Virus record (IMG/VR): IMGVR_UViG_3300035698_016704
Span: 1-32,633 of that record
Source: a virus
Direction: 5' to 3' (one strand)
Length of the DNA stretch: 32,633 bases
Shown here: one piece after another, positions 12,541 through 17,164 of the stretch
Numbering within the stretch: the stretch's first letter is position 1
Layout: the number at the start of each line of letters is the position of its first letter
Notes under the pieces: generated by a model
Database searches by the model: none
The model's input: only the letters and a program-made list of their open reading frames with translations
What the model was told of the DNA's origin: nothing
Program-made: the position numbers and the translations under genes

Positions 12541-13497
12541 TTATTTTAATATTTTGATATAAGCACTACTTTCTTTTCCTAAAGTTATTTGTTCTTCGTC
12601 TCTATTAGAAAGGTTTTTGTGTCCTGATACTTTTATAGGCATTCCTATTCCTAGTTTCATTCCTTTATCTTTTATTTTATTAAAATAATCATTCCAACAT
12701 ACTACACTGTAGCTTTCTCCTATGTTAGTTATTTTCATTATTATCATCATTCCACGTTTGCTTTGTAATTCTCTATAGTAATCAATTATTCCTGCGATCA
12801 CTACTCTCTCGCCTATATCTTTTTCAGTAAATTCTTCAAAGTTTATAACCGAACCCATCTTGTCAGGAAAGAGTTCTCTAACTGATTGTTTATTGTATGG
12901 CATTATTTGGCTAGCTTCAAAACTCCATTCTTCTTTTGTCATCTTTAAACGTTCTTTATCTTTTCTCAGCATAGCATATAATCTAGATATCTTATTTCTT
13001 CCACCGAATTTTCTAAATGCATTTGAGATTATTAATATTTTCATAACTCGTATGTTTATAACTCGTTTGTTAACACGAGTAAAAAAGTCTTCAAATGAAT
13101 CAAATGGTTGCTCCTTGACGATCTCAATTGCTGCTTTTATGCCAATGCCCTTTATGCTTACGAGAGCCCATACGATCTTGTTCTTGTGTATTATAAACTT
13201 ATCTTTTGATAAATTAATTTCAGGTAGGATATATTTAATTTTATATTTTTTTCTGGAAACATTTTTAATTAATTCATATTCATTGTCTGTAGCTTGTTGC
13301 AAATGAGCACAGAAAAATTCTATGGGATAGTTTACTTTAAGATATTGAGTAGCGTTTGCTAAGATAGCATAGGCAGAGGCGTGTGCTTTGAGCTAAGGGA
13401 AGGCATATGCAGCCATTCCCATCATCTGCTGCCATATGCCTTCCGCAATCTCCTTTATTTCTTCTTTTGTTCCGTATCCGTTTTTGTCCACTATCAT
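12541..13497 (-). CDS. dnaE: DNA polymerase III alpha, C-terminal part, with in-frame TAG at codon 35
   Basis: Starts at ATG 13497 with a strong GGAGGTAA ribosome site. The first 34 codons (MIVDKNGYGTKEEIKEIAEG onward, ending GMAAYAFP) match the polymerase segment that should follow the N-terminal part. A TAG (13393-13395) follows and, in the same frame, LKAHASAYAILANATQYLKV and the rest of a DnaE C terminus. That part has a helix-hairpin-helix SIKGIGIKAAIEIV and an OB-type domain (ERVVIAGIIDYYRELQSKRG). In the family the break is contiguous (F-P/N-K-A/S-H-A-x-A-Y-A), so TAGCTC looks like six extra bases. No alternative ATG with a ribosome site lies just after the TAG. Either the codon is read through or bypassed, or the gene is damaged. 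Confidence 0.75.
13398..13444 (-). other. Strong stem-loop just upstream of the in-frame TAG
   Basis: In the mRNA sense, GGAAGGCATATGGCAGC and GCTGCATATGCCTTCC can pair as 12 perfect base pairs, a one-base bulge and 4 more pairs, around a 14-base loop. The 3' arm ends two bases before the TAG stop of the polymerase C-terminal part. A near-palindrome this long inside coding sequence is unexpected. Confidence 0.8.
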
Positions 13498-13510
13498 TTA
13501 CCTCCATATT

Positions 13511-14478: not shown

Positions 14479-17164
14479 TTTTATGTCCCCATTTTTTTAC
14501 TGCCATTGAAATAAATTTATCTTTAAAGGATTTGAAATCTTCAGGACTTTTTGACTTAATAATTTTTCTCATCGTTTCTGAATCAATCGGGTTCATGCCA
14601 GCGAATTCAGTGGAACTTCGCATCACGTGTTCGGAATAAGTAAGAACACCTCGTGTGTCTGCGAGGACTTTTTTAAGTGATGGATGTAAGACTTTTTCTT
14701 TTTTTCTGCCGTATTTTCGGTCAATGAAATTTGGGAACGCACCGGATGCCATAGGACCAGGACGATCTGCCGCTACCATAAAAATTATTTCTTCTATATT
14801 TTCAGGTTTTAATTGTTTTAAAATTGGTTTTAAGAAGTTTTTATTGAGTTGAAATATACCTAAGTTCTCCCCTTCCGACAGGGATTTATAAACTTTTTTA
14901 TTATTCAAAGGAATCGTTTCTATTTTTAATTCCTTACCTTTTCTCTTTTTTATTAATTTAAATGCATCGTTTATAATAGTGAGAGTGCGGACTCCGAGAA
15001 GATCCATCACCATTACTCCACGTTCATTAAGATGTTCTACGCTTGTATGCGAGTTTTCCCATTGCGTAGCAAATACTCTTTCACCACCTTTTTCTTTAGA
15101 CAATTTGTTTGTTCTTACAGGAAGCCATTTATAATATGGTTCTGGTGAAATAACTATTCCAGCGGGATGTAATGATTCTCCATATGCGTTACCAATTATA
15201 GGACGAATATAGGTTTCGAACCATTCTTTATTGTCTTCAAACCATTCAGCTACAGATGATCCTGGTATCTCATCTATATTATCAGGCATTATTTTTGTTA
15301 TCTTGTTAATTGCTTGATATTCAAATGGTTCTAGTTTCTTTTTTAATTTTTCAATCTTCACTTCCGAAGTGGCTTGATCTATCTTATTCTTTATATCTTT
15401 TGCATCAACCCTTGCTATATTTTTTATTGCCATTTTCAATTGATTTCTACCAAAACTTCCTACAATACATATATGATCTTCTCCATACGTTTTCTTTAAA
15501 TAACTAATAGCCATATCCCTGTATGTGTGTGATATGTCAAGATCAATATCGATATCTGCCATTTGTGCTTCTATTCTTGCGGGGCTAATGAATCTTTCGA
15601 ATAATATATCAAACTCAATAGGATTAACAATTGACATTCCAATTAGCCATAGAATAATGCTACCGTTAGCAGATCCTCTTAAAGAACAAATACATCCTTG
15701 TTTCTTTAAAAAGCGTATGAGATCATCGTATATGAGAATGTAGCCAATTACATCCATCTTAATAAACGCATCTAATTCCAAACTAATTCTATGTGCATAT
15801 TCAGTAGACAGTTTTTTCTTTCTTTGTTTAACAATTTTTTTAATACTTTTTTCAATCCTATATTTAAGGTAGTCTTCTTTATCCATCCAATTTTTATATC
15901 CAGGAAATCCACTGATATCTATCTTGGGAATTTTTAATCCACCAGTCGGTATTATATAATTACATTTATCAGCAATTTTTAGTGTATTTCCTGTTGCTTT
16001 CTCAAATATATCTTGTGAAAGATAGTTGAAATTCTTTTTTGTCTTCTGAAGACTTTTATAATCTTTAAACCATAAAGATTTACAATATGCGCTAAAGATA
16101 TCTGAGTCAGTTTTTACTCTTATTAGTTTATTCTGGATTTTATGCATTCCTTTATCTAAGTAATGTACATCATTTGTTAATACTAATTCAATGTCTAATT
16201 TTTTAGACATTTTTATAAGTTCTTTGTTATAAACTTTTTGGATATCTTTGTCATTGTCGTCTATGATTTTATGCATTTGTATTTCTAAATATAGATCTTT
16301 ACCAAATACTTTATGGAGCCTTTTAACTTTTTTATATGCCGTTTTTAGCTCTCCATTTAGTATGTCTTGAGCGATCAAACCTTTAAGGCAAGCTGTTAAT
16401 ACTATTAAACCATCGTGATGTTTTAAGAGCATGTCGTAACCGATTCTTGGTCTATAATAAAAGTTTTCAGGAGACCATGATAACATTTGAAGCTTTAATA
16501 GATTTTGATAGCCTTGTTTATTTTTGACCAACAACACAATGTGATTGCTTGTCCTATGATCTCCGTCGTGGACTGCTGGTTCATCAACTATATATGTCTC
16601 GGTTCCAAATATTGGTTTTATACCTAACTTCTTAGCTTCTAATTGTAAATATAAATGAGAAGATACATTGCCGTGATTAGTAATTGCAAGAGCGTTCATT
16701 CCAAATTCTTTTGCACGTTGAAGATATGATTTACAAGTGCTAACTCCATCAAGAAGTGAGTAGTCATCATGGACATGTAGGTGTATAAATTTGGATTTGT
16801 TTTTACTGGATACTTTTTTTGTGATCGGAACAAGAGAGGATAGTGGTATGGGATAAACAGCGAGTTGTCTCTTCTTTAGAATTCTTTGTTTTTTTATTAT
16901 GTTTTCGAGATCTAAATAAAACGGTTTGTTTTTAAAGATAATTACTATCTTATTAATGATGTTAGCTGTGATATCAGAATACACATGGATGGGAATATTC
17001 GTTTCTTTTCCTTCCTTAAACAAATACATTGCTTCATATATAAATAACTTTCCTACATCTGATTTAACTATCAAGTAGTTATCATTAGCTAACCTTTTAA
17101 CTAAGATCTTTGAAATCTTTATTCCGTGGTCATTCAGTAGCTTTATAATTTCTTTTGTTTTCAT
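14432..17164 (-). CDS. dnaE: DNA polymerase III alpha, N-terminal part (PHP plus palm)
   Basis: This 910-residue part of a bacterial C-family replicative polymerase starts MKTKEIIKLLNDHGIKISKI, preceded by AAGGAGATTA. The PHP domain begins HLHVHDDYSLLDG at 128-140 and keeps ITNHG and LTNDVHYL, so its metal site looks intact. The palm has SLRGSANGS (494-502) and the catalytic ADIDIDLD with Asp at 537, 539 and 541. Later come ESLHPAGIVISPEPY and the RPGPMASGAFPNFIDRKYGR fingers block. It is collinear with DnaE up to FISMAVKKWG, then changes to HKNANKNTKIPHDETKV, which is the endonuclease sequence read in another frame. The remaining enzyme is encoded at 12541-13497, so the two would have to associate as subunits. 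Confidence 0.93.
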   Translation of the reverse strand: MKTKEIIKLLNDHGIKISKILVKRLANDNYLIVKSDVGKLFIYEAMYLFKEGKETNIPIHVYSDITANIINKIVIIFKNKPFYLDLENIIKKQRILKKRQLAVYPIPLSSLVPITKKVSSKNKSKFIHLHVHDDYSLLDGVSTCKSYLQRAKEFGMNALAITNHGNVSSHLYLQLEAKKLGIKPIFGTETYIVDEPAVHDGDHRTSNHIVLLVKNKQGYQNLLKLQMLSWSPENFYYRPRIGYDMLLKHHDGLIVLTACLKGLIAQDILNGELKTAYKKVKRLHKVFGKDLYLEIQMHKIIDDNDKDIQKVYNKELIKMSKKLDIELVLTNDVHYLDKGMHKIQNKLIRVKTDSDIFSAYCKSLWFKDYKSLQKTKKNFNYLSQDIFEKATGNTLKIADKCNYIIPTGGLKIPKIDISGFPGYKNWMDKEDYLKYRIEKSIKKIVKQRKKKLSTEYAHRISLELDAFIKMDVIGYILIYDDLIRFLKKQGCICSLRGSANGSIILWLIGMSIVNPIEFDILFERFISPARIEAQMADIDIDLDISHTYRDMAISYLKKTYGEDHICIVGSFGRNQLKMAIKNIARVDAKDIKNKIDQATSEVKIEKLKKKLEPFEYQAINKITKIMPDNIDEIPGSSVAEWFEDNKEWFETYIRPIIGNAYGESLHPAGIVISPEPYYKWLPVRTNKLSKEKGGERVFATQWENSHTSVEHLNERGVMVMDLLGVRTLTIINDAFKLIKKRKGKELKIETIPLNNKKVYKSLSEGENLGIFQLNKNFLKPILKQLKPENIEEIIFMVAADRPGPMASGAFPNFIDRKYGRKKEKVLHPSLKKVLADTRGVLTYSEHVMRSSTEFAGMNPIDSETMRKIIKSKSPEDFKSFKDKFISMAVKKWGHKNANKNTKIPHDETKV

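Follow-up and report, generated by a model that had tools for sequence, protein, structure and literature searches.

A viral replicative polymerase gene interrupted by a one-kilobase insert and by a short stop-led gap that ribosomes may bypass

The DNA analysed here, called the window, is the entire 32,633-base viral record IMGVR_UViG_3300035698_016704 of IMG/VR, which is probably a fragment. It encodes the alpha subunit of DNA polymerase III (DnaE), a family C replicative polymerase. The dnaE reading frame is not continuous and has two breaks. One is an insert with other genes, and the other is a gap of six nucleotides (nt) led by a stop codon. An RNA hairpin is located directly before the gap. 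All genes treated here are on the minus strand. The features follow in gene order, with protein lengths in amino acids (aa) and small open reading frames as ORFs:

14432..17164, minus strand: dnaE-N, 910 aa, with the PHP, palm and fingers domains of DNA polymerase III alpha (Pfam, NCBIfam)
13483..14488, minus strand: insert at break 1, 1006 nt, defined by comparison with the relatives L131, L042 and L133
13897..14478, minus strand: HNH endonuclease gene, 193 aa (PHROG 119, E 3e-9)
13599..13928, minus strand: DUF3310 gene, a passenger, 109 aa (Pfam DUF3310, E 4e-8)
13511..13591, minus strand: 26-codon ORF with stop, a passenger, MDKTIRTARLKEFKKIINNIKTKLQL; its ATG lies within a 46-aa ORF at 13511-13651
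13396..13497, minus strand: first 34 codons of the C-terminal fragment (MIVDKNGYGT..YAFP), native from the AAC codon 13480-13482
13398..13444, minus strand: RNA hairpin within the coding sequence, 47 nt; its 3' arm reaches one base into the CCT proline codon
13390..13395, minus strand: gap at break 2, TAG CTC, 6 nt that separate the P codon 13396-13398 from the K codon 13387-13389
12541..13389, minus strand: remainder of the C-terminal fragment (KAHASAYAIL..), 282 aa and stop, with the helix-hairpin-helix and the C-terminal region

DnaE spans position 17164 to the TGG codon at 14489-14491 and restarts at the AAC codon at 13480-13482, with 1006 nt in between. In dnaE-N, Pfam detected PHP, palm and finger domains with E values of 1e-41 to 1e-44, and in the C-terminal fragment an HHH_6 domain (E 8e-17). 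The model TIGR00594 is covered by dnaE-N at positions 1-726 and by the C-terminal part at positions 749-902. Native residues of dnaE-N stop at the tryptophan codon 14489-14491 and are followed by a non-native tail of 18 residues. The HNH gene begins with an ATG at 14478, and its first 47 nt are also the last of dnaE-N. The C-terminal fragment has its own ATG at 13497 and a GGAGGT ribosome site at 13500-13505. A sequence-only reading of this DNA had proposed a dnaE that is split and resumes about 1 kb further on, beyond an HNH gene, a DUF3310 gene and a 26-codon ORF. The domains of dnaE-N and the extent of the insert bear out this split, and the gene content agrees with PHROG 119, Pfam and the sequence. 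A Pfam search with the 26-codon ORF gave no match.

Uninterrupted dnaE genes, which the same reading had suggested as a means to define the insertion ends, are present on the three contigs L131, L042 and L133, and the junction is now defined. The gene order is similar to the window: the three contigs share a thymidylate synthase-like gene upstream and HD hydrolase and HU-like genes downstream. The dnaE of L131 is a single ORF of 1197 aa, 57% and 55% identical to the window, and its protein matches Taq Pol III alpha (2HPI) with an E value of 2e-134. At the site of break 1 it reads ..IQGAIKTWEHEPGIERRAARIW.., in agreement with the collinearity proposed across the join. A second interrupted dnaE was found on L012 (IMGVR_UViG_3300009128_001633, IMG/VR, 95.9 kb), a close relative; its N-part is 66% and its C-part 63% identical to the window. 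The phylogenetic analysis placed the window and L012 together (93/94), with the intact L131 next (100/100); the window pieces had been joined one codon off in the input, a stop character replacing K, which leaves the topology unaffected. Viral scans with the N-part or the motif as queries yielded no relative or the L012 contig alone, and a genome scan yielded distant dnaE only. A literature search found no paper on such a dnaE. In those matches from faeces named 'Bacteriophage sp.' that were inspected, dnaE sits among bacterial-looking genes.

L012 has break 1 at the same place (KKW | NGYGT). Its insert of 905 nt carries a zinc-ribbon-like gene and two small genes, unrelated to the passengers of the window, and no HNH gene is recognisable in it. 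No homologue of the window HNH protein was found in the L012, L122/L131, L042 and L121/L133 records. Because L012 shows this split around unrelated passengers and lacks a recognisable HNH gene there, a causal role of the endonuclease, as assumed in the sequence-only reading, is unproven. The HNH gene may have been the first to invade, may have replaced an earlier invader or may simply lodge at the site.

Each polymerase piece was found once in the window record. The palm and HHH domains of DnaE occur once each in the window and once each in L012, and neither a family A or B polymerase nor a second family C copy was found in these two records, which may be incomplete. A second complete polymerase, the finding that had been expected to overturn the split, was thus not present in either sequence.

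The downstream polymerase gene has its own start codon, but it is not a single ORF. It cannot be read straight through because the 34 codons MIVDKNGYGTKEEIKEIAEGIWQQMMGMAAYAFP are followed by an in-frame TAG at 13393-13395, then by CTC and, in the same frame, by KAHASAYAILANATQYLKV. The stop falls within the conserved motif Y-A-F-P|K-A-H. L012 is broken at the same codon boundary: YAFP is followed by an 11-nt gap, TAAAAAAAATG, which starts with TAA, and then by KAHATSYAIL. The P and K codons are therefore 6 nt apart in the window, and in L012 the distance is 11 nt; the stop codon comes first in both, directly behind the presumed take-off codon (CCT-TAG in the window, CCG-TAA in L012). The intact genes read QYAFPKGHATSYA in L131 and SYLFPRGHASSYA in L042 and L133. 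The native motif of the lineage is therefore F-P-[KR]-[AG]-H, and removal of the gap yields precisely the FP-[KR]-[AG]-H motif of these three relatives.

Coding constraint is visible on both sides of the gap. For the 29 codons after the gap, the comparison of the window with L012 gave a nonsynonymous divergence (dN) of 0.09 and a synonymous divergence (dS) of 1.9. The 34-codon middle segment had a dN of 0.25 and a dS of 0.79, and 18 of its 29 native residues are identical to L012. By these values, both segments behave as translated protein under purifying selection. The frame after the gap has no ATG, GTG or TTG until 13302, which leaves 29 conserved codons without a start, and no GG dinucleotide that could form a ribosome site is present between the gap and this position.

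The positions of the breaks were located on an AlphaFold2 model of the intact L131 polymerase (24 sequences, mean predicted local distance difference test (pLDDT) score of 85.8). Break 1 maps to the inter-helix loop 890-895. The middle piece corresponds to about helix 896-910 and little more. Break 2 maps to the N-terminus of helix 917-936, which begins with the motif. In our reading of this model, break 1 would be easily tolerated as two chains, while break 2 would cut a conserved motif and leave a middle piece of nearly a single helix. The approximately 120 residues before the PHP domain of dnaE-N (window 16790-17164, minus strand) align with L012 and L131; this region is mainly beta in the L131 model and has no Pfam match in the window protein.

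The hairpin of the window has a predicted stability of -26.1 kcal/mol and is the top-ranked 57-mer on the coding strand of the window. Its counterpart is the second most stable in the L012 locus. None of 3000 codon-preserving shuffles was as stable, for the window (z -5.1) as for L012 (z -8.4). The result was much less striking for a 141-nt stretch with plain dinucleotide shuffles, a control that does not keep the protein fixed (z -1.9, 11/200 as stable). Eleven lower-stem pairs are common to both hairpins, two of which are changed on both sides and covary; the upper stems pair differently. The corresponding site has no unusual structure in the intact L131, L042 and L133 (z -0.3, -0.75 and -0.75). 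Hairpin and gap co-occur in this small sample and are counted as one evolutionary event, not as five independent observations, because of the single shared ancestry. A role as intrinsic terminator was rejected, as no T-run follows. Just 5' of the hairpin, both gapped genes have an AGGAG(G) Shine-Dalgarno-like coding sequence (window 13455-13459, minus strand; L012 7930-7936 region). The second interruption with its hairpin was overlooked in the sequence-only reading and is the stronger and more unusual finding.

Several explanations for the second break were rejected. Use of TAG as a sense codon or an altered genetic code was discarded because TAG terminates 8 of the 42 listed ORFs in the window and L012 carries TAA at this site. 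A suppressor transfer RNA (tRNA) was rejected, as tRNA genes were found neither in the window nor at the L012 locus. A T-arm-like sequence resembling the 3' half of a tRNA, GGTTCGAGTCC, lies at L012 13609-13665, where ARAGORN calls no tRNA. A hop between matched codons was rejected, as no shared codon yields a product of native length. Internal initiation at an ATG of the -1 frame (L012 7950) would lead into the C-part in L012 only; the corresponding frame of the window ends unjoined.

We tentatively favour a bypass, at nearly even chances: ribosomes may cross the stop-led gap of 6 to 11 nt with the aid of the hairpin, similar to gene 60 of phage T4. A ribosome would arrive at the proline codon with the stop codon in the A site, and the peptidyl-tRNA would be released. 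The strong hairpin just behind would re-zip and pull the messenger RNA, so that the ribosome is moved forward by 6 nt, or 11 nt in L012. Decoding would restart at the lysine codon and yield the native ..YAFP-KAHA... The only detected replicative polymerase would then consist of two assembling polypeptides, dnaE-N with 910 aa and the C-terminal protein from the ATG at 13497. We infer the assembly of the pieces, the crossing of the gap and the role of the hairpin. A stop-led gap at one codon boundary in two diverged contigs speaks for a bypass, which fits both the window and L012, though with unmatched codons. Further points in favour are the native motif obtained when the gap is skipped, the selection on codons right behind the stop where start codons are lacking, the hairpin seen in the gapped but not in the intact genes, the lack of another polymerase family in the window and L012 records and the precedent of T4. 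A joined product would be consistent with the collinearity with the intact relatives.

Several observations weigh against a bypass. The sample of gapped dnaE comprises two sequences, the window and L012, each on one metagenomic contig. The flanking codons are unmatched, CCT/CTC in the window and CCG/ATG in L012, and the gap lengths of 6 and 11 nt differ modulo 3. No obvious KKYK-like motif that could serve as a nascent-peptide signal is present in the 34-aa peptide. L012 also offers simpler alternatives, an ATG immediately before the K codon and the canonical -1 slip heptamer U-UUC-CCG ahead of the stop. If the window contained an error of one base, its gap could share the frame of L012, and the case for a bypass would be weaker.

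The ATG of L012 suggests an immediate re-initiation after the stop, by which the polymerase would be made as three polypeptides: the N-part, a helix of 32-34 aa and the C-part. This ATG adjoins the K codon 6 nt past the stop, and post-termination ribosomes can slide and re-initiate (PMC11194080). The window lacks an in-frame ATG, GTG or TTG and any GG until 13302, and a restart there would skip the 29 strongly conserved codons. The middle piece would be barely more than one helix, yet it is conserved, and the hairpin would have no role. We regard this course as unlikely. Ordinary recoding appears quite unlikely. It would combine read-through of TAG in the window, where the frame is the same on either side (YAFP-X-L-KAHA), with a -1 frameshift on U-UUC-CCG in L012, where no stop interrupts the -1 frame between the slip site and the C-part (..IRFPVKKMKAHATSYAIL; YAFP-VKKM-KAHA). 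Two different mechanisms would be required at one homologous site, and both would insert residues, two or four, into an active-site motif. The slip site of the window, C-UUC-CCT, is poor and leads to the wrong frame. Stimulators of read-through and -1 shifts are usually located 3' of the site, whereas the hairpin lies 5' of it.

Break 2 may also not be crossed at all. The gene could be decaying, or the window could contain a one-base assembly error, and the C-part would be lost or made otherwise. The origin of each sequence from a single metagenomic contig is in line with this, and a 1-nt error in the gap of the window could place the downstream frame in the -1 register of L012. This is very unlikely considering the purifying selection on the C-part and the middle segment, the recurrence of the stop at this boundary in an independent contig, the conserved hairpin and the lack of any other polymerase in the window and L012 records. 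The gap might instead be cut out of the RNA, as a tiny intron or by an endonuclease and a ligase, with the hairpin serving for recognition; this would account equally for gaps of 6 and 11 nt. Nevertheless, it seems extremely improbable: nothing at the site resembles known intron families, and we know of no intron so short in bacteria or phages. Intron models of Rfam, those of group I and II included, gave no match in the window, nor around the insert at E<=5. Should the bypass prove wrong, a replicative polymerase made of three pieces would be unusual as well.

Insertions in dnaE are found in other phages, in part at the same place. Intein-like insertions at an FN(K)|SH motif are present in L045 (3501-4100), L049 (4950-6797) and L096 (8302-8950). 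They are located at approximately the site of break 2, and the scores for Hint or intein models are weak. The insertion of L096 ends in different frames and may be split or broken. Eight further genes (L099, L105, L108, L109, L111, L113, L114 and L117) have about 1 kb extra around L017 polymerase residues 590-600, by sequence apparently another insertion hotspot, and L050 has an insertion near residue 42. The dnaE of Bacillus phage Jayan (L003 2998-6405) is annotated as two coding sequences with a small hypothetical gene between them, at another position. Elsewhere in the window, putative NUMOD3/HNH (24852-25496) and GIY-YIG (25680-25964) homing-type nuclease genes adjoin at 24852-25964 on the minus strand. 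An apparent truncation of SbcC relative to the PHROG profile was rejected; the Walker motif is present.

Among split polymerases, cyanobacterial DnaE-N and DnaE-C belong to the same enzyme family and are split by a split intein. Their models NF007079 and NF005616 meet at L131 residues 914-915, one or two residues from break 2. In contrast, the window contains no intein sequence, and break 2 is a 6-nt gap within one transcript. The dnaE of Bacillus phage vB_BauM_KLEB27-3 (OM634661) resembles that of the window with two annotated pieces and an HNH gene between them. It differs in the position of the break, after FQIE, and in flanks that look like a group I intron from their sequence (OM634661; L009 4640-5670). 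The Aeromonas phages encode a polymerase split into 43A and 43B, for which co-purification and activity were shown (PMC2988022). This phage replicative polymerase is likewise encoded by two genes, which a homing endonuclease gene separates in phage 25, but the enzyme belongs to family B and has a single break (PMC2988022).

The closest parallel is found in phage T4. Genes 39 and 60 are separated by a 1010-nt insert with the HNH homing endonuclease gene mobA and ORF 60.1 (PMC3014915, PMC5009743, PMC11194080), similar to the insert of 1006 nt with an HNH gene and a small ORF that splits an enzyme gene here. Gene 60 has a 50-nt bypass, with a stop codon beside the take-off codon and a 5' stem-loop modelled as the motor (PMC3014915, PMC5009743, PMC11194080). 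In both systems the C-terminal fragment is broken by a stop-led gap, after 46 codons in T4 and after 34 in the window, and the take-off codon has a stem-loop on its 5' side. Unlike gene 60, the gap comprises 6-11 nt instead of 50 nt, the take-off and landing codons are unmatched, no nascent-peptide signal is known and the gene encodes a family C replicative polymerase. Synthetic stop-hops (PMC5009743) resemble the nine nucleotides CCT TAG CTC, which would encode one amino acid with a stop in the middle; those use matched codons, while CCT and CTC differ and L012 needs a longer hop. Because the flanking codons are unmatched and the joining is inferred, the locus is not classified as a gene 60-type bypass but is proposed to work like one. 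The insert of gene 60 may have shielded the gene from an endonuclease (PMC5009743). Such protection could apply to the dnaE motif because it is an invasion hotspot; an origin of the gap as homing-site protection is speculative.

Gene 60 is the one established programmed bypass of a phage, and a Streptomyces phage terminase is a candidate (PMC5009743, PMC3014915). The dnaE of the window and L012 may, with somewhat less than even chances, be a second phage example of a bypass beside a gene split, in which gap length and hairpin sequence evolve and the hop is kept. Such a second case, in a gene and a phage unrelated to those of gene 60 and likewise located downstream of a split, would point to a tendency of endonuclease splits and bypass gaps to arise together. 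With a gap of 6-11 nt and one hairpin, dnaE would also provide a much smaller system than gene 60 for testing a 5' hairpin as a ribosome motor.

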